Shown here piece by piece: positions 5,711 to 62,003 of a stretch of 64,000 bases of DNA. Numbering within the stretch: the first letter of the stretch is position 1; every line of letters starts with the position of its first letter. The position numbers and the translations under genes were made by a program. Origin of the DNA: Paramicrobacterium chengjingii (lineage in GTDB: Bacteria > Actinomycetota > Actinomycetes > Actinomycetales > Microbacteriaceae); contig NZ_CP061169.1 in assembly GCF_011751765.2 (NCBI RefSeq), positions 62,001 to 126,000 on the forward strand, read 5' to 3'. A model generated the notes under the pieces. The model was not told where the DNA came from, made no database searches, and saw only the letters and a program-made list of their open reading frames with translations.

Positions 5711-6865
5711 ATGAGCATACCCGCCGATCCGCCTGCCCCCACCACGTGGCCGAGGCTCGTCATCATTTCGTGTGCCCTCTCAGTAGTCGTGGGAGTAGTT
5801 CTTCTCGCCTTCTCTTGGCCAGCGATCACTGCCGCGCCGCGCGATCTTCCCGTCGGAATCGTGGGCTCGGAGAAGCAGGTCGACCAGCTTGCTGATGCGA
5901 TTGAAGATGGCTCAGACGGCGCGATCGAGCTCACTCGCTTTGACGACAGGGATGCCGCCGTCGCGGCGATCACGCAGCGGAGTGTCTCTGGTGCAGTCGT
6001 TCTGGGGCAGACGCCCATGGATGCGCCCGAGGTGCTGTCGGCAACGGCAGCCAGCACCCAGGTCTCACAGATGATGGATGGGCTGAGCAGCACACTGCAA
6101 GCTCAGATCGATGCCCAGGTCAGGGCCACCGTTGAGCAGCAGGTTCAAGCGGCGATGTCGGGGCAAAAGGCTCCGCCAGCCTCGGGCGAGACGCCACAGA
6201 AGTTTGAGTTCCCCGTCGTCACGGTCGAGACGACTGACGTCGTTCCGCTCAGCGAAGACGACCCTCGCGGAGCGGGACTGAGCGCATCGATGTTCCCGCT
6301 CGTCATCGGCGGAATTCTCGGCGGAGTTGTGATCACCCTCGTGCTCAAGGGGTCCGGCGTGCGCCGGCTCATAGCGCTTCTGATCTATGCGGGAGCAGCG
6401 GGCCTTGTGCTGACCGGTGTTCTGCAGGGGCTGTACGGAGCGTTGCAGGGCGACTATTGGGCGAACGCGGGTGCGATGGCGCTGTCGATCGCTGCCATCT
6501 CGGGAACGATCACCGGACTCGCTGGGTTGGTCGGTGCTGCGGGCGCGGGGATCGGCGCGGCATTCACGATGCTCATTGCCAATCCTCTCTCGGGTGCCAT
6601 GGTGCCAGCGGAGTTCATCGTGCAGCCGTGGGGTGCCGTCGGCCAATGGTTCCCGCCCGGAGCTGCAGGAACGCTGATTCGCGACCTGTCGTACTTTTCC
6701 GATGCCAACACAACATTTCCGTGGATGCTGTTGGCGATCTGGGTGTGCGTCGGAGCGGTGTTCACGGTAATCAACCTGCCAGGGCGCCAATCACCGAGGT
6801 CCGCGGATCACGCACAGCTCGGTGCGGGTAAGGAGGCTGCTGCGCCAGCACACGCTGCCCTCTGA
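5711..6865 (+). CDS. YhgE/Pip-like (ABC-2/DUF3533-type) membrane protein
   Basis: This 384-residue membrane protein has one N-terminal transmembrane helix (about residues 14-36), a large extracytoplasmic domain to about 195, and five to six further hydrophobic segments up to about 365. This is the arrangement of YhgE/Pip and ABC-2 permease-like export proteins. A GGAG ribosome binding site precedes the ATG. It sits under a TetR-controlled promoter, which suggests inducible export of a toxic or amphiphilic compound. No ATPase is encoded beside it. The substrate is unknown. Confidence 0.7.
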   Translation: MSIPADPPAPTTWPRLVIISCALSVVVGVVLLAFSWPAITAAPRDLPVGIVGSEKQVDQLADAIEDGSDGAIELTRFDDRDAAVAAITQRSVSGAVVLGQTPMDAPEVLSATAASTQVSQMMDGLSSTLQAQIDAQVRATVEQQVQAAMSGQKAPPASGETPQKFEFPVVTVETTDVVPLSEDDPRGAGLSASMFPLVIGGILGGVVITLVLKGSGVRRLIALLIYAGAAGLVLTGVLQGLYGALQGDYWANAGAMALSIAAISGTITGLAGLVGAAGAGIGAAFTMLIANPLSGAMVPAEFIVQPWGAVGQWFPPGAAGTLIRDLSYFSDANTTFPWMLLAIWVCVGAVFTVINLPGRQSPRSADHAQLGAGKEAAAPAHAAL

Positions 6866-7559: not shown

Positions 7560-8817
7560 GCGCGGCCTCCCGTTCAGGCAGCGGCAGGTGCAGGCGCAGA
7601 GTTGTGGGGCCGCCGACCGGACTGTCGATCATGAACGTGCCGCCGAGGGTCTCCGCGCGTTCCGCGAGTCCGCGCAACCCGGTGCCCGCGTCTGGGTCTG
7701 CGCCGCCATTGCCGTTGTCGAGGATCATCATGTCGAAGCCGTGCTCACCCGATCGCGCCCGAACCGTCAGTCGTGTCGCCGTCGTGTGCTTCGCGGCATT
7801 CGTGATCGCCTCGGTCACGACGTAGTAGGCGGCGGTCTCGACGCCGGAGAGCATGCGGTCGTCGACATCGACGTCGAGCCGCAGCTCGACCGGCGCGCGT
7901 TCGGCGAGCTCATCAAGCGCCGCAGCGAGCCCGTGGTCGGTGAGCACAGCGGGGTGAATGCCGCGCACGGTGTTGCGCAGCGTCGCCATGGCGTGCTCGG
8001 CCTGATCCTGCGCCGTGGCGAGGGCTGCCCTCGCGGCATCCGTTTCTGCCCCCTTCTCGGCGAGCTGGTCAAGGTCGAGGCTTACCATGCCCAGGCGCGT
8101 GGCGAGGGTAACGAGTTCTTGCTGCACGCCATCGTGAAGATCGCGCTCGATGCGCCGCCGCTCGGCCTCGAAGCCCGCGACCAGCGCGGCGCGCGACCGC
8201 GAGAGCCTCTCGACGTTGCGTTCGAGCTCCTCCTGCCGTGGGCCGCAGAGCAGCCGCAGAAGGTACGCGTGTCCCGAGGTGATCAGGGCATTGATGTAGC
8301 AAAACAACGCGAGCAAGACGGCGGCGACGGGTACGGCCGGCCACCAGTTTCCCGGCGTCACGGTGACGTAGACGTTGCCGAACAGATTGAGCTCGCGTGG
8401 CCCCTGGATCGCGGCAATGACGATCGCGACAGGAAGGGCAAGTGCCGCGAACTCGACGAAGAGCACGGCGAGCGACAGCATCCCGAGAACGATATCGACC
8501 AACAGTGCTGCCGTTTCACGCCACGTTGCCGTTTCGACGAGCCGGATGCTCAGCCAGTGTGGGCGTTGGTCGCGGCCGAGCCGAACGTGTCCCGTCGGCA
8601 GTCGGGCGAAGCCGAGAAGCCGCGTGCGCCGCCGCTCGAGTGCGCCGAGCGCGATTCCCCACAGCGGCAGCAGCACGAGGGTGAGAACGGTCACGGCGAG
8701 CAGCAGCACACCGAGCAGGGCACTGGTCAGCAGAAACAACAGCGAGCGACATGGCCACCAGCTGCCGAAAAACGACACGGGCGACCGCCGAAGCGCGCCC
8801 CACGCCGTGTTCGTCAT
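7540..8817 (-). CDS. Sensor histidine kinase (HisKA_3 type)
   Basis: This 425-residue membrane kinase has four or more hydrophobic segments in the first 190 residues (an actinobacterial putative-sensor type N-terminus). A dimerisation/phosphoacceptor helix follows with His228 in RDLHDGVQQE. The HATPase domain shows the N-box EAITNAAKH and the G-box DNGNGGADPDAGTGLRGL. It is cotranscribed with the response regulator and divergent from the transporter at 8942. The absence of a large extracellular loop suggests sensing within the membrane or through the transporter (inference). Confidence 0.9.
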   Translation of the reverse strand: MTNTAWGALRRSPVSFFGSWWPCRSLLFLLTSALLGVLLLAVTVLTLVLLPLWGIALGALERRRTRLLGFARLPTGHVRLGRDQRPHWLSIRLVETATWRETAALLVDIVLGMLSLAVLFVEFAALALPVAIVIAAIQGPRELNLFGNVYVTVTPGNWWPAVPVAAVLLALFCYINALITSGHAYLLRLLCGPRQEELERNVERLSRSRAALVAGFEAERRRIERDLHDGVQQELVTLATRLGMVSLDLDQLAEKGAETDAARAALATAQDQAEHAMATLRNTVRGIHPAVLTDHGLAAALDELAERAPVELRLDVDVDDRMLSGVETAAYYVVTEAITNAAKHTTATRLTVRARSGEHGFDMMILDNGNGGADPDAGTGLRGLAERAETLGGTFMIDSPVGGPTTLRLHLPLPEREAARADSAG

Positions 8818-8941: not shown

Positions 8942-9679
8942 GTGAACATTCCACGTGTCAGCGCACACAATCTACAGAAATCCTTTCCCGGGGGCCGGAA
9001 GCAGCCTCCGGTACCCGTTCTTCGCGGCATCTCGATCGAGGTGGGTGACGGGGAGATGGTGAGCATTGTCGGCCCGAGTGGCTCGGGCAAGTCGACGCTG
9101 CTGTACTGCCTCTCGGGGCTCGAGCCATACAACTCGGGGTCTGTGCGGGTGGAGGGCCACGAGCTGGGAGAACTGGGTCGCTCCGCGCTGGCGAGCCTGC
9201 GGCGCGACCACGTGGGCTTTGTGTTTCAGTCGTACAACCTCATTCCGTCTCTGAGCGCTCGAGAAAATGTGGCGCTGCCCGCGCGACTCGCACGCCGCGG
9301 AGCTCGTCGCACAGACGTGACCGCAGCGCTCGCCGCCGTAGGGCTGGGCGATCGCGCACGGCATAAGCCGGGACAGTTGTCGGGAGGCCAGCAGCAACGT
9401 GTGGCGATTGCTCGCGCGCTCGCGATGAAGCCGCACATCGTCTTTGCGGACGAGCCGACCGGATCACTTGACACCGCGTCTGGCGATGGCGTGCTGCAGC
9501 GGCTTCGGCGGGTCACCCGTGAGGGCCGCTCGGTTGTGATGGTCACGCACGATCTCGAGGCTGCGGCACGCGCAGACAGGGTGCTTGTGCTGCGCGACGG
9601 TGTGATTCACTCAGAGCTTCGTGAACCGACGCCGGAGCAGGTGCTTGACGCCGTCAGTCTGGCAGGAGCGGCGGCATGA
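8942..9679 (+). CDS. ABC transporter ATP-binding protein (MacB/LolD type)
   Basis: This 245-residue ATPase starts at GTG 8942. It has Walker A GPSGSGKST, the Q-loop in FVFQSYNL, signature LSGGQQQR, Walker B VFADEPTGSLD and the switch histidine MVTHD. The sequence family is the MacB/LolD/BceA group that pairs with FtsX-like permeases. It overlaps the permease gene by 4 nt (ATGA at 9676-9679). With the divergent two-component system this is most likely an antimicrobial-compound efflux or release system. Confidence 0.9.
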   Translation: MNIPRVSAHNLQKSFPGGRKQPPVPVLRGISIEVGDGEMVSIVGPSGSGKSTLLYCLSGLEPYNSGSVRVEGHELGELGRSALASLRRDHVGFVFQSYNLIPSLSARENVALPARLARRGARRTDVTAALAAVGLGDRARHKPGQLSGGQQQRVAIARALAMKPHIVFADEPTGSLDTASGDGVLQRLRRVTREGRSVVMVTHDLEAAARADRVLVLRDGVIHSELREPTPEQVLDAVSLAGAAA

Positions 9680-11016
9680 TTCGCCTCGTCGTGAGTGATC
9701 TGGGTTGGCACGCACGCGAGTGGGTCGGAATTCTCGTGGTGACGATTGCAGCAGGTTTTGTCGGGGCCATCGCCGCTGGGCTCCTGGAAACCGGGGCATC
9801 GAACGGGGGCGATGTGCAGGTGGCCATGATCGGCGGCAGCGGGGTGGTGCTCACCTTCAGCTCAGTGACAGCGCTCATCGTACTCAGCTCAAGCGCCAAT
9901 CTTACTGTCACGTTGCAGCAGCGCAGCTACGCACTGTGGCAGCTTGCGGGCATTCGACCACGGCAGGTCGGCCGCGTTGTTCTGGGCCAGCTGGTCGTCG
10001 TCGGTATTCTCGGCGCGGTGAGCGGCAGCATCCTCGCTCGTGCGCTTTTTCGCTCGGTCTTCGAGTTTGCCTTCGCTGACTGGCAGGGTATGAGCGGGCT
10101 GCCTTTGCACCTCGGCGCCGCGAGCGTGGGCTGTGTGGTTGTCGCCGTTGTCGGCACGATTGTGCTCGGCGGGCTCAGAGGGGTGCGCCGTGCGAGCAGG
10201 GTGGCTCCGATCGAGGCGCTTCGTGAACCTGAACCGCCGTCGGTGAGGCTCACCTGGTTTCGGATGCTGCTGGCTGCTGCGACCGCGACCGGCATTGTGT
10301 GGATGGCACTGGCGATGAACAGCGGCGACTTCGATCTCATTATGAACTCATCGATTTTTGTCACCCCCATGATCGCGGCGCTGATTGCCGCGCTCGGCCC
10401 CGTGCTCTTTTCACTTGTGCTGCGCGCATGGACAGCGTGCGTTCCGAGCAGGGCATCAGCGGCGTGGTATCTCGCACGGCACTCGGCCGCGCACCGTCTG
10501 AGCCGCAGCACCGCCGCGATCAGTCCCCTGATGGTTGCCGTCGCACTCACCGGTGGTCTCTACACCACAGTCGCGGTGCTGAAGCAATCGTTCATCGAGA
10601 GAACCGGTGACGCGTCGGGCTTCGGCATTGAGTTCGCGAGCGTTGTGCTGATGCTCGGTGGGCCGCTTCTGCTCTCGGGCATTGCGGCGGCGGCCACAGT
10701 CTTCATCTCGAGCCACGCCCGAGAACGAGAGTTTGCCCTTGTGCAGGCCGCAGGGTCGACGCGACGCACAATCGTCTGGATGTCCGTTTTCGAAGCGGTG
10801 ATCTATGCGATCACGGCGACGATTCTGGGGCTCGTCGCCATTGTCTCCGGCGGCATCATCACGGTGTTGGCACTTGAGCTGAACACGCTGCCGATCTCAT
10901 TCGCGAGTGTGAGCCTTGTGGCAGCAGGAGGCCTCGCCCTGTTGCTTGTTGCGACGCTGGTGCCAACGCTCGCCGCGTTGCGCACCGAGATTCCACGAAC
11001 GCTCGCTGTCGAGTGA
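9676..11016 (+). CDS. FtsX-like ABC transporter permease
   Basis: This 446-residue permease has an FtsX/MacB-type arrangement: an N-terminal helix, a block of hydrophobic segments up to about residue 170, a soluble stretch, and a second block to the C-terminus. It is coupled to its ATPase by an ATGA overlap. BceB proteins (about 650 residues, with a large extracellular loop) are longer, so this is a smaller subtype. It ends 24 bp before the convergent MFS gene. Confidence 0.85.
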   Translation: MIRLVVSDLGWHAREWVGILVVTIAAGFVGAIAAGLLETGASNGGDVQVAMIGGSGVVLTFSSVTALIVLSSSANLTVTLQQRSYALWQLAGIRPRQVGRVVLGQLVVVGILGAVSGSILARALFRSVFEFAFADWQGMSGLPLHLGAASVGCVVVAVVGTIVLGGLRGVRRASRVAPIEALREPEPPSVRLTWFRMLLAAATATGIVWMALAMNSGDFDLIMNSSIFVTPMIAALIAALGPVLFSLVLRAWTACVPSRASAAWYLARHSAAHRLSRSTAAISPLMVAVALTGGLYTTVAVLKQSFIERTGDASGFGIEFASVVLMLGGPLLLSGIAAAATVFISSHAREREFALVQAAGSTRRTIVWMSVFEAVIYAITATILGLVAIVSGGIITVLALELNTLPISFASVSLVAAGGLALLLVATLVPTLAALRTEIPRTLAVE

Positions 11017-32837: not shown

Positions 32838-33242
32838 TCAGACGCGAATCACAGTAACGCCATGAGCGCCCTCAAGTGGATCGAAGTCGTCGTCTTGCGT
32901 CACGATGGGAACCCCGTTGGCGGCCGCTGTCGCCGCGATCCAGAGGTCATTGACGTTGACGCGGCGGCCGCTCTCGGCGAGATGTACTCTCAGGCGCGCC
33001 CAATGAGCTGCAACTTCGGCATCAATCGCGAGCAATTCGATGTCCATCGTGGACTCTAGCGTGGACAGCCGTCGCGCGCGAACGTCGACGTCGGCGATAC
33101 TCAGCACACCGGCCTGCAACTCAGCGATCGTCACCGGACAGATAACACTCTGGTCTGGCAGCATCTCGGCATTCATTGGTCGACCTGACTCAAGGGCTAT
33201 GAACACGCTCGTGTCGAGAAGGCCTTTCGCAGCAGGACGCAT
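32838..33242 (-). CDS. vapC: VapC toxin, PIN-domain ribonuclease
   Basis: This 134-residue PIN-domain protein is a probable endoribonuclease toxin. Conserved acidic residues are visible: Asp10 in LLDTSVFIALE, the Glu in TIAELQAGV, the Asp of NVNDLWIAATA and Asp near 117 in VTQDDDFDPL. Its ATG overlaps the stop of the antitoxin gene by one base (TGATG on the minus strand), so the two are translated together. The length is normal for the family and the active site appears intact. Confidence 0.92.
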   Translation of the reverse strand: MRPAAKGLLDTSVFIALESGRPMNAEMLPDQSVICPVTIAELQAGVLSIADVDVRARRLSTLESTMDIELLAIDAEVAAHWARLRVHLAESGRRVNVNDLWIAATAAANGVPIVTQDDDFDPLEGAHGVTVIRV

Positions 33243-33502
33243 CAGCGGATCGGGCCGAGGTCGTCAGTGGTCTCGCCAGCCAACAACGCCAAATCTTCGC
33301 GAAGTCCAGAATCGGCCTGCGTTCGGCTCAGGCGCCGTGTGAGGTCTGCGCGTGAAATTGGCCTTCGACGCGCCGAACGCACCGGTGTGAGCTCTGCGAC
33401 TGGACGACCGCGGGAGGTGATTGTCACGGGCTCACCTGCTTCTACTCGTCGCAGGACTTCGGCGGTGCTATTCCGGAGTTCTCGTGCTGCTATCTCAGCC
33501 AT
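33242..33502 (-). CDS. vapB: VapB antitoxin (Phd/YefM type)
   Basis: This 86-residue antitoxin starts at the ATG complementary to 33500-33502. The N-terminal part, MAEIAARELRNSTAEVLRRVEAGE followed by VTITSRGRPVAEL, is the Phd/YefM DNA-binding fold. The C-terminal tail should wrap the VapC toxin. The open frame continues 41 codons upstream, but the operator at 33501-33518 overlaps the chosen start, as expected for autoregulation. Confidence 0.9.
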   Translation of the reverse strand: MAEIAARELRNSTAEVLRRVEAGEPVTITSRGRPVAELTPVRSARRRPISRADLTRRLSRTQADSGLREDLALLAGETTDDLGPIR

Positions 33503-33518
33503 GCTACAAGTGTAGCAT
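33501..33518. promoter_or_regulatory. VapBC autoregulatory operator
   Basis: The 18-bp dyad ATGCTACA-AG-TGTAGCAT overlaps the vapB start codon. A third half-site, ATGTAGC, follows at 33521-33527. This is typical of conditional autorepression by the toxin-antitoxin complex. Confidence 0.75.
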
Positions 33519-33584
33519 TTATGTAGCCGTTTACTGGGGTGTGCGGCGCTATCTGCACGCTCACGTGCTTCAGAAGCGTCCGTA

Positions 33585-33611
33585 ATATTCTGCAGGTTTG
33601 CTTCAGAATAT
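33585..33611. promoter_or_regulatory. Inverted repeat upstream of putA
   Basis: Perfect 8-bp arms ATATTCTG and CAGAATAT are separated by 11 nt, about 110 bp before the putA start. A GCTTCAGAA sequence is also present twice (near 33568 and 33600). It is a candidate site for a proline-responsive regulator, inferred from position only. Confidence 0.45.
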
Positions 33612-33720
33612 GAGTGAAAAAACATCGCTTTACTTCATGCTTGCGCGGGGCGAGACTGGCAGTCTGACGTCCGTAATCACCTGCGAGCATCGCCGCTCGC
33701 ACGCTCGTGAAAGGCACATC

Positions 33721-36700
33721 GTGAGCTCCTCAAAAACTTCCGCATCGCACGAAGCGCAGGCCATGGCTCGCCCTCAAGATCTCGCCGACGAAGCGATCGC
33801 GCTTGTTCATCGGTGGTTGAAAGAGGCAGAGGAGATTCCCAAGGATGCCGCAGGCGAGAGGCTCGCCGGAGTGCTCAGTGACCCCAACGGCCTGGCGTTC
33901 ACTGTCGGCTTCGTCGACGGCGTCATTCGTCCGGAAGATCGGCGTGCCGCTGCGAAAAAGCTCAGCGAGCTGACGCCGCTCACTCCGCAGTTTCTTCCGG
34001 CGGCGCTGCGCGGAGCGATCGGCCTCGGTGGCGTCTTTGCCAAGCCGCTGCCCGACATCGTCGTTCCCATTGCGCGTCGGGTGCTGCGCGAGATGGTCAG
34101 CCACCTCATCATCGACGCGACCGATTCAAAACTCGGCCCGGCCATCGCGAAGATTAAGAAACACGACGTCGGTCTCAACATCAATCTCTTGGGCGAGGCG
34201 ATTCTCGGCGAACACGAGGCCGAGAGGCGCATCGCGGGCACAAAGGAGCTGCTCGCGCGACCCGACGTCAACTACGTATCGATCAAGGTGTCGTCCACCG
34301 TCGCGCCGCACAACCACTGGGCCTTCGACGAGGCCGTCGAGCGCATTCAGAATCACCTTTCTCCGCTACTCGAGCAGGCAAAGGCCGCGAGTCCTCAGAA
34401 ATTCATCAACTTCGACATGGAGGAGTACAAAGACCTCGACCTCACCCTTGCCGTCTTCACGGGAATGCTCGACCGCCCCGAGTTTAAGCAGCTCGAAGCC
34501 GGAATCGTGCTGCAGGCATACCTACCGGATGCCCTTGACGCGATGATGCATCTGCAGGACTGGTCAGCGCGCCGCGTCGCCGACGGCGGAGCACCGATCA
34601 AGGTGCGCGTCGTGAAGGGCGCGAACCTGCCGATGGAGCACGTCGACGCAGCAATCCACGGCTGGCCGGCAGCCATCTGGGACTCGAAGCAGGGCTCAGA
34701 CACCAGCTACAAGGCGGTGCTTGACTACGCGCTGCACGCCGACCGCGTGAAGAACGTGCACATCGGCGTTGCCGGTCACAACCTCTTCGACGTTGCGCTT
34801 GCCTGGCTGCTGGCGAAGAAGCGCGGCGCTGAGCAGGGCGTCGAGTTCGAGATGCTCCTCGGCATGGCCACGGGCCAAGCGGAGGTTGTGAAGCGCGACG
34901 TCGGATCGCTTCTGCTCTACACGCCGGTCGTGCATCCTCAGGAGTTCGATGTCGCCATCTCGTATCTGATTCGCCGACTCGAAGAAGGCGCAAGCCACGA
35001 GAACTTCATGTCTGCCGTCTTCGAGCTCAACGAAAGCGAGACGCTGTTCGAACGCGAGAAGCAGCGTTTCCTCGCCTCGCTCGCCGACCTTGAGGCAATC
35101 ACCGGTGACGGCAACGTCGAATCATTCGATGTGCCGAAGCCCAATCGCCAGCAGGACCGCCGCTCGTACGACGCCGAGGGTGCCGAGACACGCATCGAGG
35201 CGCGTATCGCAGCCGGTCGGAAGGGCGAGTTCGACAACACTCCAGACACCGACCCCGACCTCGTCGGAAACCGCACGTGGGGGCGCGCGATTGCGAACCG
35301 CATGGTGGAGTCGACACTGGGAACGGATGCCGTTGAGGCGTCGCGCATCGGCGACGAAGCCGCGCTCAACGACGCGATCGAGCGCGGAGTTTCGGCGGCC
35401 GACGCCTGGCAGGAACTGGGGGCAGACGAGCGCGCGCGCATCCTCTACCGCGCGGCCGAGAAGCTCGAAGAACACAGGGCGGACCTTCTCGAGGTCGCCG
35501 GATCCGAGGCGGGTAAAACCCTCGACCAGGGCGACCCCGAGGTTTCGGAAGCAATTGACTTCGCCAACTACTATGCGATGCTCGGTCAGCAGCTGGAACA
35601 GGTGGATGGCGCGACCCACACGTCGAAGAAGCTCGTCGCCGTGATTCCGCCGTGGAACTTTCCGATTGCGATTCCCGCGGGCGGCACACTTGCGGCTCTC
35701 GCCTCCGGTGCATCCGTCATCATCAAGCCCGCGTCCAACTCCGCCCGAACTGGCGCGGTGATGGTGGAGGCGCTGTGGGAGGCGGGTGTTCCCCGCGATG
35801 TCTTGCAGCTCGCGCAGTTTACCGACCGTGAGCTGGGTTCGAAGCTCGTTGCAGACGAGCGCGTCGACCGGCTGATCCTGACCGGTTCGTACGAGACGGC
35901 AGAGACCTTCCGCGCGCTGCGACAGGATCTGCCGATCCTTGCCGAGACCAGCGGCAAGAACGCGATCATCGTTACACCGAACGCCGACCTCGACCTTGCA
36001 GCGAAAGACGTCGCGCAATCGGCCTTCGGGCACGCAGGGCAGAAGTGCTCCGCGGCATCCCTCGTGATTCTCGTCGGCTCTGTCGCGAAATCACGCCGAT
36101 TCCGCAGCCAGCTGATCGATGCCGTGCAGTCCCTCACGGTCGGTACTCCCGAGCACCTCGACACGCAGATGGGACCCGTGATCACGGCGCCGTCCGGCAA
36201 GCTGCTGCGCGGGCTCACAACGCTCGGCCCCGGCGAGAGCTGGGCGATCAAGCCCGAGCCGCTCGCAAGCGACAGCCCTCTCGCTCTCGACAAGAACGGC
36301 GAGAACAAGCTGTGGAGCCCCGGGGTGCGTGACGGCGTGCGCCGCGGTTCCGAGTACCACCTCACGGAGTATTTCGGGCCGATCCTCGGCATCATGACCG
36401 CTGACACGCTCGACGAGGCGATCGATATCGTGAATGACATCGAGTACGGACTCACGACCGGGCTGCACTCGCTCGACAGCGACGAGCTCGCGACGTGGCT
36501 CGACCGCATCCAGGCAGGCAACCTCTACGCAAACCGGGGGATCACGGGAGCGATCGTGCGACGCCAGTCGTTCGGCGGCTGGAAGAAGTCCGCGATCGGC
36601 GCCGGCACCAAGGCAGGCGGCCCCAACTACCTACATGGCCTTGTTGACTGGTCGGATGCCGCGCCCGCGGACTCGTCGCATTCACCCCGTGTGCCGGCAG

Positions 36701-37308
36701 CCGCCCTGCTCGGTGCAGCGGAGCGTTCCGGAGTCACCGGTGACGACCTCAACTGGCTGACGGCGGCGCTCGGCACTGACGCGACAGCGTGGGCGAACGA
36801 GTTCGGCATCGCGCGCGACGCCTCTCAGCTCGGAGTCGAACGCAATATGCTGCGCTACTGCCCCGTCAACGTGACGATCCGCGTCGCCGCTGACGCCCCG
36901 CTGCACCACGTTGTGCGCGCGGTTGCGGCGGGTCTCGCCGCTGAGGCGACTCCGACGGTGAGCACCCCGATCGCGCTTCCCGAGCGGATCATGAATGCGA
37001 TGCGCGCCAGCGGCGTGACCATCAACTTCGAAGACAATGCGGCGTGGCAGAAGCGCGTCGCCGACCTCGCTGCGAAGCAGGGACCCTCGGCAAGCGAGCG
37101 CATTCGCATCGTGGCCGGAGCATCACGTGAGTCAGAGGTAGCCGCCGTCTATGCCGCATCGAAGGGTAAGCCCGACGTCGCGGTCTACGGCGGTGAGGTC
37201 GTGTCGGCCGGCCGCGTCGAGATGCTTCCGCATCTGCACGAGCAGGCTGTGTCGATCACGGCGCACCGCTTCGGAACCCCGAACACGCTCTCAGACGGCG
37301 TTATCTAG
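33721..37308 (+). CDS. putA: Bifunctional proline dehydrogenase / L-glutamate gamma-semialdehyde dehydrogenase PutA
   Basis: This 1195-residue enzyme oxidises proline to glutamate in two steps. I chose GTG 33721 behind GAAAGG; the open frame runs 41 codons further upstream through promoter DNA. The proline dehydrogenase barrel covers about residues 90-430 (VRVVKGANLPMEHVDA, FAD site). The aldehyde dehydrogenase domain covers about 500-1000, with WNFPIAIPAGG, catalytic Glu in LAETSGKNAIIV and catalytic Cys776 in GHAGQKCSAAS. A C-terminal domain of some 180 residues ends RFGTPNTLSDGVI. A diverged second copy of this tail lies at 40868-40984. No DNA-binding N-terminal domain is present, so it is not a self-regulating PutA. 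Confidence 0.95.
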   Translation: MSSSKTSASHEAQAMARPQDLADEAIALVHRWLKEAEEIPKDAAGERLAGVLSDPNGLAFTVGFVDGVIRPEDRRAAAKKLSELTPLTPQFLPAALRGAIGLGGVFAKPLPDIVVPIARRVLREMVSHLIIDATDSKLGPAIAKIKKHDVGLNINLLGEAILGEHEAERRIAGTKELLARPDVNYVSIKVSSTVAPHNHWAFDEAVERIQNHLSPLLEQAKAASPQKFINFDMEEYKDLDLTLAVFTGMLDRPEFKQLEAGIVLQAYLPDALDAMMHLQDWSARRVADGGAPIKVRVVKGANLPMEHVDAAIHGWPAAIWDSKQGSDTSYKAVLDYALHADRVKNVHIGVAGHNLFDVALAWLLAKKRGAEQGVEFEMLLGMATGQAEVVKRDVGSLLLYTPVVHPQEFDVAISYLIRRLEEGASHENFMSAVFELNESETLFEREKQRFLASLADLEAITGDGNVESFDVPKPNRQQDRRSYDAEGAETRIEARIAAGRKGEFDNTPDTDPDLVGNRTWGRAIANRMVESTLGTDAVEASRIGDEAALNDAIERGVSAADAWQELGADERARILYRAAEKLEEHRADLLEVAGSEAGKTLDQGDPEVSEAIDFANYYAMLGQQLEQVDGATHTSKKLVAVIPPWNFPIAIPAGGTLAALASGASVIIKPASNSARTGAVMVEALWEAGVPRDVLQLAQFTDRELGSKLVADERVDRLILTGSYETAETFRALRQDLPILAETSGKNAIIVTPNADLDLAAKDVAQSAFGHAGQKCSAASLVILVGSVAKSRRFRSQLIDAVQSLTVGTPEHLDTQMGPVITAPSGKLLRGLTTLGPGESWAIKPEPLASDSPLALDKNGENKLWSPGVRDGVRRGSEYHLTEYFGPILGIMTADTLDEAIDIVNDIEYGLTTGLHSLDSDELATWLDRIQAGNLYANRGITGAIVRRQSFGGWKKSAIGAGTKAGGPNYLHGLVDWSDAAPADSSHSPRVPAAALLGAAERSGVTGDDLNWLTAALGTDATAWANEFGIARDASQLGVERNMLRYCPVNVTIRVAADAPLHHVVRAVAAGLAAEATPTVSTPIALPERIMNAMRASGVTINFEDNAAWQKRVADLAAKQGPSASERIRIVAGASRESEVAAVYAASKGKPDVAVYGGEVVSAGRVEMLPHLHEQAVSITAHRFGTPNTLSDGVI

Positions 37309-37330
37309 ATCCCGTTCCGGGGCGGTTCGC

Positions 37331-37906
37331 TCACGGTTCCACGTGCGACCTGATGTATACCCACACCGTGCCTTCGTCGTCATGACCGAAACTGATAATC
37401 GTGCCTGAACGTTGATCATCTTTGTCGGCAAAGCTGCGGTCCCGGGTGAGGTCGCGTGATTCGAAATACTCCCGTTCGTCGTCTGACAGGCAGGTTGTTG
37501 AGGGGTACAGGCACTGTGCGTATCCAGAACCTAGCTCGACGTCCGTGTCAGGCGGGAGCGTCACGAGTGCGGACATGCCGGTGCTGAAGAAGTCCTCCGA
37601 GGAGGCCGACTCGACAATCGTCGACCCTTCTGGCAACTGCAGGTTGGCCTTTTCCTCAATCCACGCCTCGGATCGAGACACGCACCACGTGGGCCACAGT
37701 ACGAAGCATCGCCCCGAGTCGAACGGTGGAAAGGTCACGAATCGGAAGACGAAGCCTCCGCCCCACACGAGAATCACGATGGCAAGCACGGCACCACCCA
37801 CGAGGGACAAACGAGCGGGAAGTGAACGCCGCCTTCTGTGGGGCTCTTCAGGCAAAGGCAGTCCCAGCTCGGACGCGCTGACAATCTCGTAACGTCGACG
37901 TGTCAT
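37331..37906 (-). CDS. Membrane-anchored protein of unknown function
   Basis: This 191-residue protein has a cytoplasmic N-terminus of about 30 residues (MTRRRYEIVSASELGLPLPEE), one transmembrane helix (about 33-54) and an exposed domain of 135 residues with four cysteines. I recognise no family. The general plan is like the 32192-32587 protein. It lies at the left edge of the segment bounded by the two putA tails, so it may have been acquired with it. Confidence 0.55.
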   Translation of the reverse strand: MTRRRYEIVSASELGLPLPEEPHRRRRSLPARLSLVGGAVLAIVILVWGGGFVFRFVTFPPFDSGRCFVLWPTWCVSRSEAWIEEKANLQLPEGSTIVESASSEDFFSTGMSALVTLPPDTDVELGSGYAQCLYPSTTCLSDDEREYFESRDLTRDRSFADKDDQRSGTIISFGHDDEGTVWVYIRSHVEP

Positions 37907-37938
37907 CGGCGCTCATCCAAGATCACGGAACTCCCCCT

Positions 37939-38577
37939 CTAGGTTTCGTTCAACTGATGCCCGGGCGCTCTTGCCGCCGGAAGGATCTTTCCGGTGGTCG
38001 CCCAGTCACTCAGCCAATCGACGAGCAGCTTCTTCTCAGCGAGCTGGACTCTCCCGCGCAATGACGAAACATCATCGCTTGCGAGAACGTGGACAGGTAC
38101 CTGCGCCAGAACCGGTCCCGCGTCATATTCTTCGGTCACAAGATGAACGGTCGCACCTGTAGTTGGTGCCCTGTCGTGTAGAACGGCTTCATGGACACGG
38201 TCGCCGTACATACCGGTTGAGCCGTAGGCGGGCAGCAGTGCCGGATGCGTGTTGACGATCCGATGCTCATACGCACGAAGAACGCGGGGGCCGATCTTCT
38301 TCATGTATCCGGCCAGCACGATCAGATCGACCTGTGCTTCACTCAACGCGTCGAGCATCGAAGAGTCCCGGAGGACAGGATCGGGATGGGTAACACCGCT
38401 GAGATGGACGTTTTGGATACCGTGCCGAGCCGCGACGTCGAAGATGCCTGATTTGCTGTTGTTGCCGATGATGATCGCTACTTCGGCTTCGATCGCTGTT
38501 GCGGTCGCGACAGCATCGGCAGTGGTGCCAGACCCTGAGCCGATCAGAGCCAGGCGTTTAATCGAGGGCATGAACAC
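37939..38577 (-). CDS. purN: Phosphoribosylglycinamide formyltransferase-like protein (PurN family)
   Basis: This 212-residue protein has the formyltransferase fold of PurN. A phosphate-binding loop GSGSGTTADA lies near residue 13. The catalytic segment is IVNTHPALLPAYGSTGMYGDRVHEAVL with the conserved Asn and His, and the conserved aspartate is in VTEEYDAGPVLAQ. PurN makes formyl-GAR in purine synthesis. No other purine gene is nearby, and the gene lies in the putA-tail-bounded segment, so it may be a second or specialised formyltransferase rather than the housekeeping enzyme. The start could also be the ATG two codons later. Confidence 0.75.
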   Translation of the reverse strand: MFMPSIKRLALIGSGSGTTADAVATATAIEAEVAIIIGNNSKSGIFDVAARHGIQNVHLSGVTHPDPVLRDSSMLDALSEAQVDLIVLAGYMKKIGPRVLRAYEHRIVNTHPALLPAYGSTGMYGDRVHEAVLHDRAPTTGATVHLVTEEYDAGPVLAQVPVHVLASDDVSSLRGRVQLAEKKLLVDWLSDWATTGKILPAARAPGHQLNET

Positions 38578-38628
38578 AGTCTAGATTTGCTCAGAATCAT
38601 CGGTCGGGCTGAGACCTGGCAAAGACAT

Positions 38629-39096
38629 TCAGAGAAGTCTTCGCTCGAAGACCACGTTGAGTGGCGCGAAGCCTTCTGACTCGAAGAACGTGTGAGCGTC
38701 GTGGTTGAAGGACCACGAATCGAGTCTCACAGCATCAACGTTCTCTGCGCGCCCGATAGTGACTGCAGCGTCCATTAGCTGCTTACCGATGCCCCGCCGC
38801 TGCATGGCAGGGTCAACCGCGATGTGGTGCACGTACAGGCTCTTGGACGCATGGCGGAACGGATTCGCGGGCCGCGCACTGATTTCTGCGAGTAGGTAGC
38901 CGGCGGCCGTGCCGTCGAGGTCCGCGATGAGGACTATCGCTCCGCTTGCCAGCTGATCGGCGAGGAACGTGCGCAGTGCCTCGCGATCAGGCGCTCTGAA
39001 AAGGTCGGGTCTTCCTTCCGCGTGCAGCTGTTGGATTCCAACGCTGAGGGCACTCAACCGATCGAGGTCTGACTCTGCTGCTCTTCGAACCGACAT
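38629..39096 (-). CDS. GNAT family N-acetyltransferase
   Basis: This 155-residue acetyltransferase has the acetyl-CoA motif VDPAMQRRGIGKQLMDAA preceded by the strand LYVHHIA. The C-terminal part AHTFFESEGFAPLNVVFERRLL is typical GNAT. The acceptor substrate is unknown. It is in the segment between putA and the putA-tail remnant. The start MSVRRAAESDLDRLS at 39094-39096 fits the normal GNAT N-terminus. Confidence 0.82.
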   Translation of the reverse strand: MSVRRAAESDLDRLSALSVGIQQLHAEGRPDLFRAPDREALRTFLADQLASGAIVLIADLDGTAAGYLLAEISARPANPFRHASKSLYVHHIAVDPAMQRRGIGKQLMDAAVTIGRAENVDAVRLDSWSFNHDAHTFFESEGFAPLNVVFERRLL

Positions 39097-39278
39097 GACC
39101 GAAGCCTATCTACTAAGCACAGCCCGTCGGTCGGTCACTGATCGAGCCATTGCCTGCCGAAAACGATTGTTTACGGCAGGTGTCCGATGCGCTCGCGCAA
39201 CTGGATGTTGCTCCAGCGTTACGCCTCCAGAGTCTCGATACGAGAGCGGTCACGACTCGCTGTCGCTACGATTATCAG

Positions 39279-39817
39279 ATGCACACTGTGCGCGAGCCTT
39301 TTCGTCGGGGGATGCTCGCCAGGCCGCACGGCACGCAAGTATATTGGGAAATGTCAGGAAACCCGACCGTTACCTGGTTGTCGGACTCGATCAGCGAGGT
39401 TGTGGACGCAGCACACCGTGGCGATCGACGACCTCGACAACATCGATGAAAACAACACCGCTGCGGTTATCGCCGACATCGAGGCGCTGCGCGAGCATCT
39501 AGGAATCTCAGCGTGGCGGCCCGGGCAACTTCACGAAGATCCGCGAGCGCGGGAGAACTTCGCTCACCCACTATTGGGCCCATGACTGCTTCTTGACAGG
39601 CGACGATCGCATCCTCGAGTGCGCAAGTCAGCTCACGGGCATCCAGGGATACCTCATTCACGGACGACGGGACGTGAATTCTCCGTCCGTCACGCCGTGG
39701 CGACTGCACAAGACATGGCCGGGAAGCCGGCTACAGATCGTGGAGTCCGAAGGACACGGCGGAAAAATCGCCAAGCAGCTGGCTACCGAGGCAATCGAGT
39801 CGGCATTAGCGCGCTGA
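39279..39817 (+). pseudogene. Decayed proline iminopeptidase (S33)
   Basis: Fragments of one proline iminopeptidase are recognisable in three frames. The N-terminal part is EPFRRGMLARPHGTQVYWEMSGNP (from 39279). Next is VVGLDQRGCGRSTPW in another frame (about 39372-39420), then IADIEALREHLGISAW in a third (to about 39520). The nucleophile elbow and cap are deleted. The C-terminal part THYWAHDCFLTGDDRIL, then IQGYLIHGRRDVNSP to ESEGHGG, closes it at 39817. Two frameshifts and a large internal deletion make it non-functional. An intact S33 enzyme is encoded at 17599-18846. Confidence 0.82.
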
Positions 39818-40152
39818 CACACGGTGGCTCTGCCGAGTGCCGCGAAGAGAATCGAGAGCCTCGAAGTAGACATCCGCTCCTCGGCCGAAAACTCCTGCCG
39901 TATAACGATTGTGACGAGCGTTTGTGGCGGTCGTCCAGTGCGCTATGCAAGGACCGGGCTAGAAACGGTCCATTTCGAGGCTATTTAGGCATGTTTTGGG
40001 CCTAGATGAATGAGTCCTATTAGCGTTTGACTGCGTGGAGGCTGTTAAACCCTGTTTGTGAAGACAGATTTGAACACCCTCCTGACCACACTTTAGGTAG
40101 CCTGCTTGACTAGTACGCACCAGCCGACAGGATGAGCGAGAAGGGGGCAGTG
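39818..40152. other. Intergenic region, 335 bp, no gene recognised
   Basis: This stretch is visibly richer in A and T than its surroundings (about 39960-40110). It contains a short inverted repeat, GGACCG-N9-CGGTCC, near 39953-39973, and possible -35 elements TTGACT at 40027 and 40106. I see no open frame with family resemblance. It probably includes the promoter of the lipoprotein gene. Confidence 0.4.
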
Positions 40153-40833
40153 ATGCCACGCTCCGCGAGCACCGTGGGAGCCGTTGTGGCTCTCCTCAGC
40201 CTCATTGCCGTTACGGGATGCGGCGCTGGTTCTGCTGAACGCGCGGACGGAGCCGCATCTGCAGAGTCTGGCGCGCCAGTGGAAACGCCGACACCGACGC
40301 CCACGATCGAACCGGTCGAGACCATTGCCACAACGCCAATCTCTGTCGAGGATTATCTCAGTCTCACCGAGGAGCGCAGTGCCGACGGCGGAGTCAAACT
40401 CGAAGGCGTGCAAGACGATTATCGTGCGCTCGCAGCGGTATTTCCTCTTGCTCTGCCGAACGTGTACGCGTTCCCGGTTGAATCACGCGCCGCCAATAAC
40501 CTCGATGACGAAAAGAAGGTACAGTTCAGTGCCACGTATGGCGAGAACGAAGTCTTCCACTTCTGGCTCGACTCAACGGCGACTGCTGCCTACGCCTCGC
40601 ATCTTCGTGGCGACAGCACGGCAGCGAACCGGTACCTCGATGCCATCGAGGACGGATACGCAACACCTATCCGTCGCCACACCATCGAAGATCCCGAAAA
40701 TGGATACATCGCAGATGTCGTCGACTCCGCGCGCCGAGGAATCTTCGGGCAGATGATTCTTCAGAACGTCAACCCGTTCCTCGAGATTGAACAGTACGAG
40801 GCGGTCGCAGCACAGGCGGGCGACGTCTTCTAG
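40153..40833 (+). CDS. Lipoprotein of unknown function
   Basis: This 226-residue secreted protein has a signal peptide ending in the lipobox VTGC (MPRSASTVGAVVALLSLIAVTGC). A Thr/Pro-rich linker (ETPTPTPTIEP) follows and then a soluble domain of about 160 residues. ATG 40153 is chosen because AAGGGGG lies 7 nt upstream; the frame is open from 40132. I recognise no family. It ends 35 bp before the putA-tail remnant, and therefore within the segment that may have been inserted. Confidence 0.65.
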   Translation: MPRSASTVGAVVALLSLIAVTGCGAGSAERADGAASAESGAPVETPTPTPTIEPVETIATTPISVEDYLSLTEERSADGGVKLEGVQDDYRALAAVFPLALPNVYAFPVESRAANNLDDEKKVQFSATYGENEVFHFWLDSTATAAYASHLRGDSTAANRYLDAIEDGYATPIRRHTIEDPENGYIADVVDSARRGIFGQMILQNVNPFLEIEQYEAVAAQAGDVF

Positions 40834-40867
40834 CCCCGCAGGTGGCGCGCCTAACGCAGTATTGAGC

Positions 40868-40984
40868 GACCTCGCACTGTACGGAGGCCGCGTCGAGATG
40901 CTGCCGCACCTGCGCGAGCAGGCGGTTTCGATCACCGCGCACCGGTTCGGAACGCCGAGCACACTGTCGGACGTCGCCATCTAG
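40868..40984 (+). pseudogene. 3'-terminal fragment of a second putA
   Basis: The frame ending at TAG 40982-40984 reads DLALYGGRVEMLPHLREQ then AVSITAHRFGTPSTLSDVAI, which matches the last residues of PutA (37170-37308) nearly residue for residue apart from a five- to six-residue gap after YGG. Third-codon positions differ often, so it is not a recent copy. No other part of putA is present. It is a truncated remnant and not a gene of its own. Confidence 0.85.
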
Positions 40985-40990
40985 CGCGAG

Positions 40991-42232
40991 TCAGTTGAGG
41001 CGCTGCGCCTTGCCGCGCAGCACTTCGGCCTCGCGCTCGTTGCCCGTGAGTGCGGCGGCGGACTCGAACTCCGCCCGCGCCTCGTCGTGCCTGCCCAGCT
41101 GAGCGAGCAGCTCTCCGCGTACGCTCGGCAGCAGATGTGTGCCCGCAAGGGAGCCTGCCGCAGCAAGATCGTCGACGATCTGCAAAGCTGACGCCGGCCC
41201 TGTCGCCATCGAAACGGCGACTGCGCGATTGAGATCGACGATCGGGTTGGGTGCGAGGCGCCCGAGCGCTTCGTAGAGCACGACGACGCGATCCCAATCG
41301 GTGTCGTCGATGCTTGGCGCACGAGAATGGCACTCGGCGATCGCAGCTTGGAGCGCGTAGGCACCGCGCCCTCGACCGAGCGCATCAGCGCGCTTAAGAG
41401 CATCGCTGCCGCGGCGAATCTGCGCGTGATCCCACCGCGCCCGGTCTTGGTCGGCAAGTAAGACCGGCTGCCCGGCAGCATCCGTTCTGCTGGCGAATCG
41501 CGAGGACTGAAATTCCATGAGCGCGACAAGGGCGAACACCTCGGGCTCGCGAGGCATGAGCCCAGCCAGGGTGCGGCCGAGCCGTAGAGCCTCGCGGGCG
41601 AGATCACGGCGCATCCACGTGTCGCCGGTTGTTGCGGCGTAGCCCTCGGTGAAGATCAGGTAGACAACGCTCAGCACTCCGGCGAGCCGCTCCCGCAGCT
41701 CGGTGGGTTCGGGCGATTCGAACGGCACGTGCGCCTCGGCGAGCGTGCGCTTCGCCCGAGTGATTCGCGCCTGCACCGTCGCGACGGGGGCGAGCAGCAT
41801 CCGCCCGATCTCCGTCGTGGTGAGCCCGGCAACAATGCGCAGCGTGAGTGCAACCTGCGATTCGCGCGAGAGCACCGGGTGGCAGGCGATGAACACCAGC
41901 CGCAGCACGTCGTCGTCGACTGCCTCCAGCGCGTCGGCAGGGTTATCCGGATGCTGGTCGTCGAGCTCTTGCGCCATTGCGGCGTACCGCTCGGCCAACC
42001 GGGCATCGCGCCGCCAGGAGTCGATCGCGCGGCGCTTGGCGACAGCGGTCAACCACGCCGCCGGGTTGCGTGGCACACCAGCATCCGGCCATGTCGCGAG
42101 CGCCTCGAGTGTCGCATCGCTCACCAGGTCTTCGGCGCGCCCGACGTCACCCGTGAATCGGGCGAGCGCCGCAATGATGCGTGCTCCCTCGATTCGCCAG
42201 GTGACGTCGAGCGTGCTCTGAGTGCTGGTCAT
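40991..42232 (-). CDS. RNA polymerase ECF sigma factor, ECF42 type
   Basis: This 413-residue sigma factor begins MTSTQSTLDVTWR at 42230-42232; the frame upstream is antisense-like sequence. It has a region 2 (AARIIAALARFTGDVGRAEDLVSDA-like segment and RNPAAWLTAVAKRRAIDSWRR), region 4 (LTTTEIGRMLLAPVATVQARITRAKRTL) and a long C-terminal TPR-like extension of some 220 residues that marks ECF42. No anti-sigma factor is nearby. Instead, as is typical of ECF42, a DGPF-domain protein is encoded just upstream. The two genes are 29 bp apart. Confidence 0.92.
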   Translation of the reverse strand: MTSTQSTLDVTWRIEGARIIAALARFTGDVGRAEDLVSDATLEALATWPDAGVPRNPAAWLTAVAKRRAIDSWRRDARLAERYAAMAQELDDQHPDNPADALEAVDDDVLRLVFIACHPVLSRESQVALTLRIVAGLTTTEIGRMLLAPVATVQARITRAKRTLAEAHVPFESPEPTELRERLAGVLSVVYLIFTEGYAATTGDTWMRRDLAREALRLGRTLAGLMPREPEVFALVALMEFQSSRFASRTDAAGQPVLLADQDRARWDHAQIRRGSDALKRADALGRGRGAYALQAAIAECHSRAPSIDDTDWDRVVVLYEALGRLAPNPIVDLNRAVAVSMATGPASALQIVDDLAAAGSLAGTHLLPSVRGELLAQLGRHDEARAEFESAAALTGNEREAEVLRGKAQRLN

Positions 42233-42261
42233 CAGCCATCCCGGTTTTCGTCGGTCGGCCG

Positions 42262-42699
42262 CTATGACTGGGCTGCGCGCTCCTCCTGCTCCTTGCGCCA
42301 GCCCTTCTCTTTCTCGATGTACTCGTTGCCGGCGAAGTCGTCGAAGTCGCTCTCGTCGGTGACACGGCGCACTTCGAGCTTGCTTCCGCGGCCGAGCGGG
42401 GCACGGCGCGCCCACTCCACGGCTTCGTCTTTGCTCGCAACCTCGATGATCCAGAACCCGTTGAAGAGCTCGTGCGTTTCGCCGTAGGGGCCGTCGGTGA
42501 CGATCGGGGTCTCAGAGTTGAAGTCGACGACGAAACCTTCGGAGGCGTCGCTGAGTCCTTCTCCGGCGAGCAGCACGCCAGCTTTCATCATCGATTCGTT
42601 ATAGCGCCCCATGGCGTTGATGACCTCTTCGAAGTTTGTCTCCTCGTACTCGTGGATCGCTGCGTCGCTCGTGTTGCGCATGATCAGCATGTATTTCAC
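42262..42699 (-). CDS. YCII/DGPF-domain protein
   Basis: This 145-residue protein has the DGPF motif in TDGPYGETHELFNGFWIIEV and the YCII fold. I chose the GTG at 42697-42699 (MKYMLIMRN) because AAGGAG lies 6 nt upstream and the family typically starts MKYML; the track-length frame begins five codons earlier at an ATG. DGPF proteins are the usual partners and often targets of ECF42 sigma factors. Their biochemical role is not established. Confidence 0.88.
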   Translation of the reverse strand: MKYMLIMRNTSDAAIHEYEETNFEEVINAMGRYNESMMKAGVLLAGEGLSDASEGFVVDFNSETPIVTDGPYGETHELFNGFWIIEVASKDEAVEWARRAPLGRGSKLEVRRVTDESDFDDFAGNEYIEKEKGWRKEQEERAAQS

Positions 42700-61920: not shown

Positions 61921-62003
61921 TCACACATTCGGAGCTGCCCCTGCGGTTTCGGCGTGGCGGGAGCCTCTCGACGGTGTGTCGTCACGGATCTCCGAATGCG
62001 TGA
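61921..62003. terminator. Long-loop inverted repeat between ilvD and SGNH hydrolase gene
   Basis: The arms TCACACATTCGGAG (61921-61934) and CTCCGAATGCGTGA (61990-62003) pair at 13 of 14 positions around a 55-nt loop. It lies between convergent genes and could end transcripts from both sides, though the loop is unusually long for a terminator. Confidence 0.5.

Follow-up and report, generated by a model that had tools for sequence, protein, structure and literature searches.

Why should the last stretch of an intact gene stand a second time, on the same strand, some 3.6 kb beyond its own stop codon? The question arises at putA in a window of 64,000 nucleotides, positions 62001–126000 of the one-contig 3.62-Mb genome of Paramicrobacterium chengjingii (G000), whose numbering we use for this locus. 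A whole-genome search matched 37210–37308 to 40886–40984 with 85% identity over 99 nt (E 2.2e-25), and a gapped alignment lengthens the repeat to 37173–37308 (tail 1, 136 nt) against 40867–40984 (tail 2, 118 nt) with a single 18-nt in-frame gap. Both tails lie on the + strand and each frame is closed by a stop; the frame of tail 2 reads LALYGGRVEMLPHLREQAVSITAHRFGTPSTLSDVAI. The recurrence of the putA end in direct orientation, noted earlier in a sequence-only reading of the locus, is thereby borne out, and so are the many silent differences claimed there: 11 of the 15 differences in the 99 nt fall at third codon positions, and 10 of the changed codons are silent and 4 are not. A third match of the stretch 37000–37320 in the same genome lies at 350 kb (74%, E 6e-13), inside a second putA; the best match to the tail in the rest of the window is 25 nt long (E 0.02). 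The locus is made up as follows.

33670..37308, + strand: putA (proline utilisation protein), frame intact and ORF as listed, its own 3' end being tail 1
37173..37308, + strand: tail 1, the recurring stretch of putA (alignment)
37331..37906, - strand: gene M, 191 aa, unknown membrane-type protein (by eye), first layer of the insert
37939..38577, - strand: PurN-like formyltransferase (PF00551, E 7e-34), second layer
38629..39096, - strand: GNAT acetyltransferase (PF00583, E 5e-15), second layer
39271..39814, + strand: prolyl aminopeptidase relic in two frames, middle missing (pieces of TIGR01249)
40019..40098, + strand: left-end relic of an insertion sequence (IS) with the first transposase codons (matches to transposase ORF starts)
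40132..40833, + strand: lipoprotein-like ORF (by eye), second layer, best relatives 35% identical
40867..40984, + strand: tail 2, the stray end of putA, 118 nt, aligned to tail 1 with one 18-nt gap (genome search, genus comparison and alignment)
40991..42415, - strand: ECF42-type sigma factor gene (PF04542, PF08281, PF20239), the convergent neighbour of putA in the genus

The genus set consisted of five genomes, G000 to G004, and in three of them, G001, G003 and G004, putA is 89–91% identical to the 1212-aa query over nearly its full length. G001 shows the site empty: a single putA tail is followed by the native spacer and then directly by ECF42. In G003 and G004, an insert of ~1.0 kb (gene M and about 0.4 kb more) stands between tail 1 and a 75-nt tail 2; from tail 2 the sequence runs on into the hairpin-bearing native spacer and ECF42, and the two genomes share their right junction. 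The duplication in G003 spans ~0.3 kb of tail, spacer and ECF42 3' end (6248–6559 versus 7583–7883), the two copies being 1023 bp apart. G002 has the other putA only, with its sole tail match inside that gene, and its ECF42 gene lies elsewhere. The DNA between the tails thus ranges from none in G001 through about 1.0 kb in G003 and G004 to 3.6 kb in G000. The junction of tail 1 and M in G000 is common to G004, the matching stopping at the start codon of M, and M itself recurs at the same site with 81% amino acid identity in G004 and 77% in G003; G001 and G002 lack any match to it, 8 further genomes among the 299 of the family match it weakly, and a Pfam scan gave no hit. Past M, the content of G000 (the PurN-like and GNAT genes, the aminopeptidase and IS relics and the lipoprotein-like ORF) is private at this site within the genus set. 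By this comparison, the patch in G000 is of at least two layers, M being shared with G003 and G004 and the rest private in the genus. The homology of ECF42 starts 12–19 nt after tail 2 in G000, as against 183–193 nt after the last tail in G001, G003 and G004.

The insertion at the putA end proposed in the sequence-only reading is supported by the single tail and directly following ECF42 of G001, and the two observations that were named there as speaking against it were not seen: there is no intact second putA at the stray tail, and gene content between the tails varies. The further suggestion, that the original end of the gene had been displaced beside ECF42, holds in part. The stray tail of G000 does adjoin ECF42, but its junction is unlike the one common to G003 and G004, and it diverges more than any other tail of the genus. 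That it is just the original end, displaced, is therefore improbable; more likely a second event brought it in or left it behind.

Several features of the surroundings deserve mention in their own right. Between the convergent putA and ECF42 of G001, G003 and G004 (loci L035, L036 and L034), a hairpin, GAAGTTTGCTCTA...TAGAGCAAACTTC, was recognised by eye; it is probably a two-way terminator and is missing in G000. The ECF42 ORF probably starts later than listed, since homologues align from about residue 52. Upstream of putA, a PIN-domain protein and a Phd/YefM-type antitoxin occupy 32838–33625 of the window; a G000 fragment taken from 33001 onwards begins to match G004 at 33255, inside the antitoxin ORF, and G001 and G003 only near 33590–33599, close to the start of that ORF. 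The second putA, 54–60% identical, lies on the same chromosome at G000:C1:347013–350729, and its 3' end resembles the tails with 74–83% identity over 66–113 nt. An Rfam scan of 37000–41500 gave one match only, far below threshold (25.6 versus 100 bits).

The presence of a second, more distant putA in these genomes could be taken to favour a tandem duplication of the gene, followed by the loss of nearly all of the second copy. Only the gene end is seen each time, however. In G000 an intact frame, that of the lipoprotein-like ORF, ends at 40833, 33 nt ahead of tail 2, and within 37901–41000 nothing but tail 2 matched putA, so that tail 2 does not terminate another putA copy. The sequence upstream of tail 2 that G003 and G004 have in common is likewise unrelated to putA, and the cargo differs between lineages. 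We hold such a duplication to be extremely improbable.

The genes enclosed by the tails are of diverse affinity. Two of the four named in the sequence-only reading, the PurN-like gene and the GNAT gene, have now been recognised by their Pfam domains, but the membrane protein and the lipoprotein ORF gave no hit. The sole close match of the PurN-like gene in the five genus genomes is G000 itself, other formyltransferases being 26–30% identical, and the lipoprotein-like ORF, with no Pfam hit, has no relative in the other four. The supposed dead iminopeptidase was confirmed as aminopeptidase pieces in two frames with the middle missing; they match positions 50–98 and 225–298 of the TIGR01249 profile, all far below the family cut-off. 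The GNAT block recurs with 88% DNA identity at a different place in G004 (G004:C1:909218–909807), beside an apparently broken resolvase-domain ORF, and short PurN–GNAT DNA remnants are found in G003:C10, beside ORFs read by eye as ArsR-like and arsenite-transporter-like; the patch is therefore a mosaic. When compared with the 299 family genomes, 37909–40870 gave scattered pieces only, with any match at all in 70 genomes. The stretch was also described as richer in A and T, and its GC content (0.58–0.61 in six 500-nt segments from 38000) is indeed lower than in most neighbouring segments (0.61–0.70), but the segments at 33500 (0.578) and 42500 (0.572), outside the insert, are equally low and the point carries little weight. 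GC3 of the four enclosed ORFs is 0.65–0.68, as against 0.74–0.86 in six neighbouring genes.

With the IS-end relic at 40019–40098 inside the G000 insert, and with the GNAT block lying beside a resolvase-domain ORF in G004, one may ask whether an insertion sequence brought in the genes along with a duplicate of the putA end. Matches to the relic lie at the beginning of transposase ORFs in G003 (PF01609) and G004, and near contig ends in other genomes. IS insertions, however, leave duplications of just a few base pairs, which do not compare with the tails, and no IS was noticed in an unsystematic look at the inserts of G003, G004 and G075, a genome of another genus described below. Movement of an IS may explain part of the second layer in G000 but not the tails, and as an account of the whole locus we find it very unlikely.

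The order of the events can be approached through the trees of the flanking genes. G000 and G004 group together both in the tree of the putA body (99% bootstrap) and in that of ECF42 (82%). Given this grouping and the right junction common to G003 and G004, the different tail 2 of G000 would be secondary, and we infer a second event in the G000 lineage; alternatively, one of the G003 and G004 lineages may have received the insert from the other. On G001 the trees disagree: it branches first in the putA body tree (76–80%, rooted on G017 and G008) and is joined to G003 in the ECF42 tree (96%, rooted on G002). According to the former tree its empty site may be ancestral; according to the latter it would need a loss or a transfer. 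A further ("down") tree, in which the G002 sequence was misplaced, was set aside.

The footprint is not confined to one genus. In G075 (genus g70), a 222-nt putA tail recurs with 93.7% identity beyond a hipBA pair, HipA (PF07804 and PF13657) and an HTH protein, and the corresponding sites of G246, G144, G287 and G198 are empty, the native neighbour beginning about 15–50 nt after putA. Judged from these alignments, G075 is an independent case in another genus. Between its stray tail and the native neighbour, G075 also carries a GNAT gene (9613–10455 of locus L139) that is absent from that place in the same four genomes; its position after tail 2 suggests that this site, too, took up DNA at least twice or received a larger piece.

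This was the one further genus with the footprint among the family matches listed, 299 genomes having been searched. The tail pattern matched in 169 of them, with three matches each in G000, G003 and G075; the places listed do not include both matches of some two-match genomes, such as G076, G199 and G288. In the order, 37 of 396 genomes matched, and pairs within 10 kb were found only in G000 and G075, G000 being the sole representative of its genus in that sample. Of 80 named loci, 16 lacked the motif; the remaining 64, some with short flanks, were examined for a downstream tail: that of L059 (G003) is real, and L096, L097 and L100 gave matches of 18–44 nt only, away from the gene end. Among 26 putA loci with up to about 1.5 kb of downstream sequence (29 less L012, L019 and L027, which had been read on the opposite strand), only L005 (G004) and L007 (G003) have a tail.

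The differences between the paired tails are concentrated at third codon positions throughout: 11/15 in G000, 4/4 in G003, 6/6 in G004 and 11/14 in G075, with probabilities of 0.0018, 0.012, 0.0014 and 0.0007, respectively, if all positions were equal. This bias suggests that the tails diverged as working gene ends, although constraint on tail 1 alone could account for part of it; at the sites peculiar to tail 2 of G000, the bias is weak (6/9, P 0.04). At four columns (6, 15, 18 and 36) in the first half of the 75-nt tails, G003 has one letter in both of its tails and G004 another in both of its own; column 24 in G004 is an exception to the within-genome agreement. The pattern points to exchange of sequence between the repeats since the two species parted. 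The assignment of native and incoming tail in G003 and G004 rests on one column (69), and it is on this single diagnostic column that duplication of the recipient's own target fits these two genomes. In G000, tail 2 has diverged too far from tail 1 to have been copied from it recently. Among the tails compared, which were those of plus-strand loci together with G001 and G003, the closest to tail 2 of G000 agree with it at 84–85 of 99 nt (G004, G003, G001 and Leucobacter sp. OLIS6).

The geometry of the locus is that of elements that integrate into the 3' ends of genes, restoring the gene end and leaving the displaced end beyond their cargo. An integrase-bearing element may thus have used the putA 3' end as its attachment site and later lost its integrase. 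No integrase, however, was recognised among the seven insert proteins of G000 and the three of G075 (Pfam), or by eye in the six frames of the G004 insert beside M; the duplications differ in length (75 nt, 118 nt, 222 nt and about 0.3 kb), and the junctions differ among inserts rather than sharing a constant attachment core. A 26-nt near-palindrome between the GNAT gene and the aminopeptidase relic (39154–39179) was tried as a serine-recombinase site and dropped because it is not repeated: in the five genus genomes its only matches are itself, on both strands, and one place with three mismatches each in G002 and G003. We regard site-specific integration as unlikely.

We consider it probable that foreign DNA joined the putA 3' end by homology-anchored recombination without an integrase, through a single crossover or illegitimate joining, leaving the stray tail as its footprint, and that the site has a layered history. 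The order of the events, the exact recombination route and the foreign donor are our reconstruction. The incoming fragment would have borne a putA 3' end related to the resident one, joined to other genes. After recombination in the end of the gene, the chromosomal putA would still have had its whole end, in part of incoming sequence, and a further copy of that end would have come to lie past the cargo. Most economically, this would be achieved by a single crossover of a circularised fragment, or by homologous joining on one side and illegitimate joining on the other. In a first event in the genus, an insert of about 1.0 kb with gene M would have come to lie between two tails; in the G000 lineage, one or more further events would then have added or exchanged the PurN-like and GNAT genes, the relics, the lipoprotein-like gene and the divergent tail 2, and removed the putA–ECF42 spacer with its hairpin. 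The direct repeats would keep exchanging sequence, as seen in G003 and G004, and crossing over between them could remove the insert. No donor was found among the tails compared or in a plasmid search; the latter gave one Arthrobacter plasmid record, unannotated at the matching place and matching in the tail only, where the tail is the end of an intact 1166-aa putA frame. A bolder and rather doubtful extension would make the putA 3' end a natural integrase-free capture site in the Microbacteriaceae, a low-rate "gene dock" at which fragments from relatives, bearing this conserved end together with passenger genes (a toxin–antitoxin pair among them), repeatedly join, stack and leave again via the repeats.

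The locus offers a readable natural example of how a gene end can admit foreign genes without the machinery of a mobile element: sister species show the site empty, simply filled and layered, and another case surrounds a toxin–antitoxin module. Should putA prove to be hit more often than genes of equal conservation, what decides the landing site would become a testable question.

The kind of event is known, and we propose no new mechanism; the putA examples are new to us, and a literature search for putA as such an insertion site found nothing relevant, the search being insensitive, as "puta" also matched "putative". In the available extracts of PMC5361080, the displacement of effector–immunity genes and the orphaned 3' regions of rhs in the type VI secretion system (T6SS) of Vibrio resemble our case in the conserved anchor, the shifted older gene and the stacked events, and a process akin to homology-facilitated illegitimate recombination is proposed for the shifted immunity genes. 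Functional modules are exchanged there, whereas in our case PutA retains its end and has no relation to the cargo. The extracts of PMC3240628 report a duplication-diagnostic product in 56 of 60 clones, with duplications of 109–950 bp in the 14 sequenced, and ascribe the gene-end duplications to a single crossover of a circular molecule. As here, part of the target gene end is duplicated beside the inserted DNA, but that is a laboratory event in E. coli with a selected marker, found when selecting for homology-facilitated illegitimate recombination, and ours is natural, old and known from comparison alone. Closest in form is insertion with long target duplication (Nobusato et al. 2000), outlined in extracts of PMC1643837, PMC3031569 and PMC3874152: foreign genes lie between target repeats of ~100 bp, a relative has the empty site, and no mobile-element gene accounts for the insertion. 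In our genomes, the direct repeats measure 118 nt (G000), 75 nt (G004), about 0.3 kb (G003) and 222 nt (G075); one-repeat, insert-free relatives are at hand in G001 for the genus and in G246, G144, G287 and G198 for G075; and no transposase or integrase among the ORFs looked at accounts for the insertions, the IS-end relic of G000 being the only trace of one. According to the same extracts, that system was first seen in Helicobacter and involves mostly restriction–modification genes, unlike the membrane-type and assorted genes, the Microbacteriaceae hosts and the 5–15% diverged repeats found here. The hipBA pair of G075 nevertheless resembles the addiction modules, restriction–modification systems, in which long target duplication was found.
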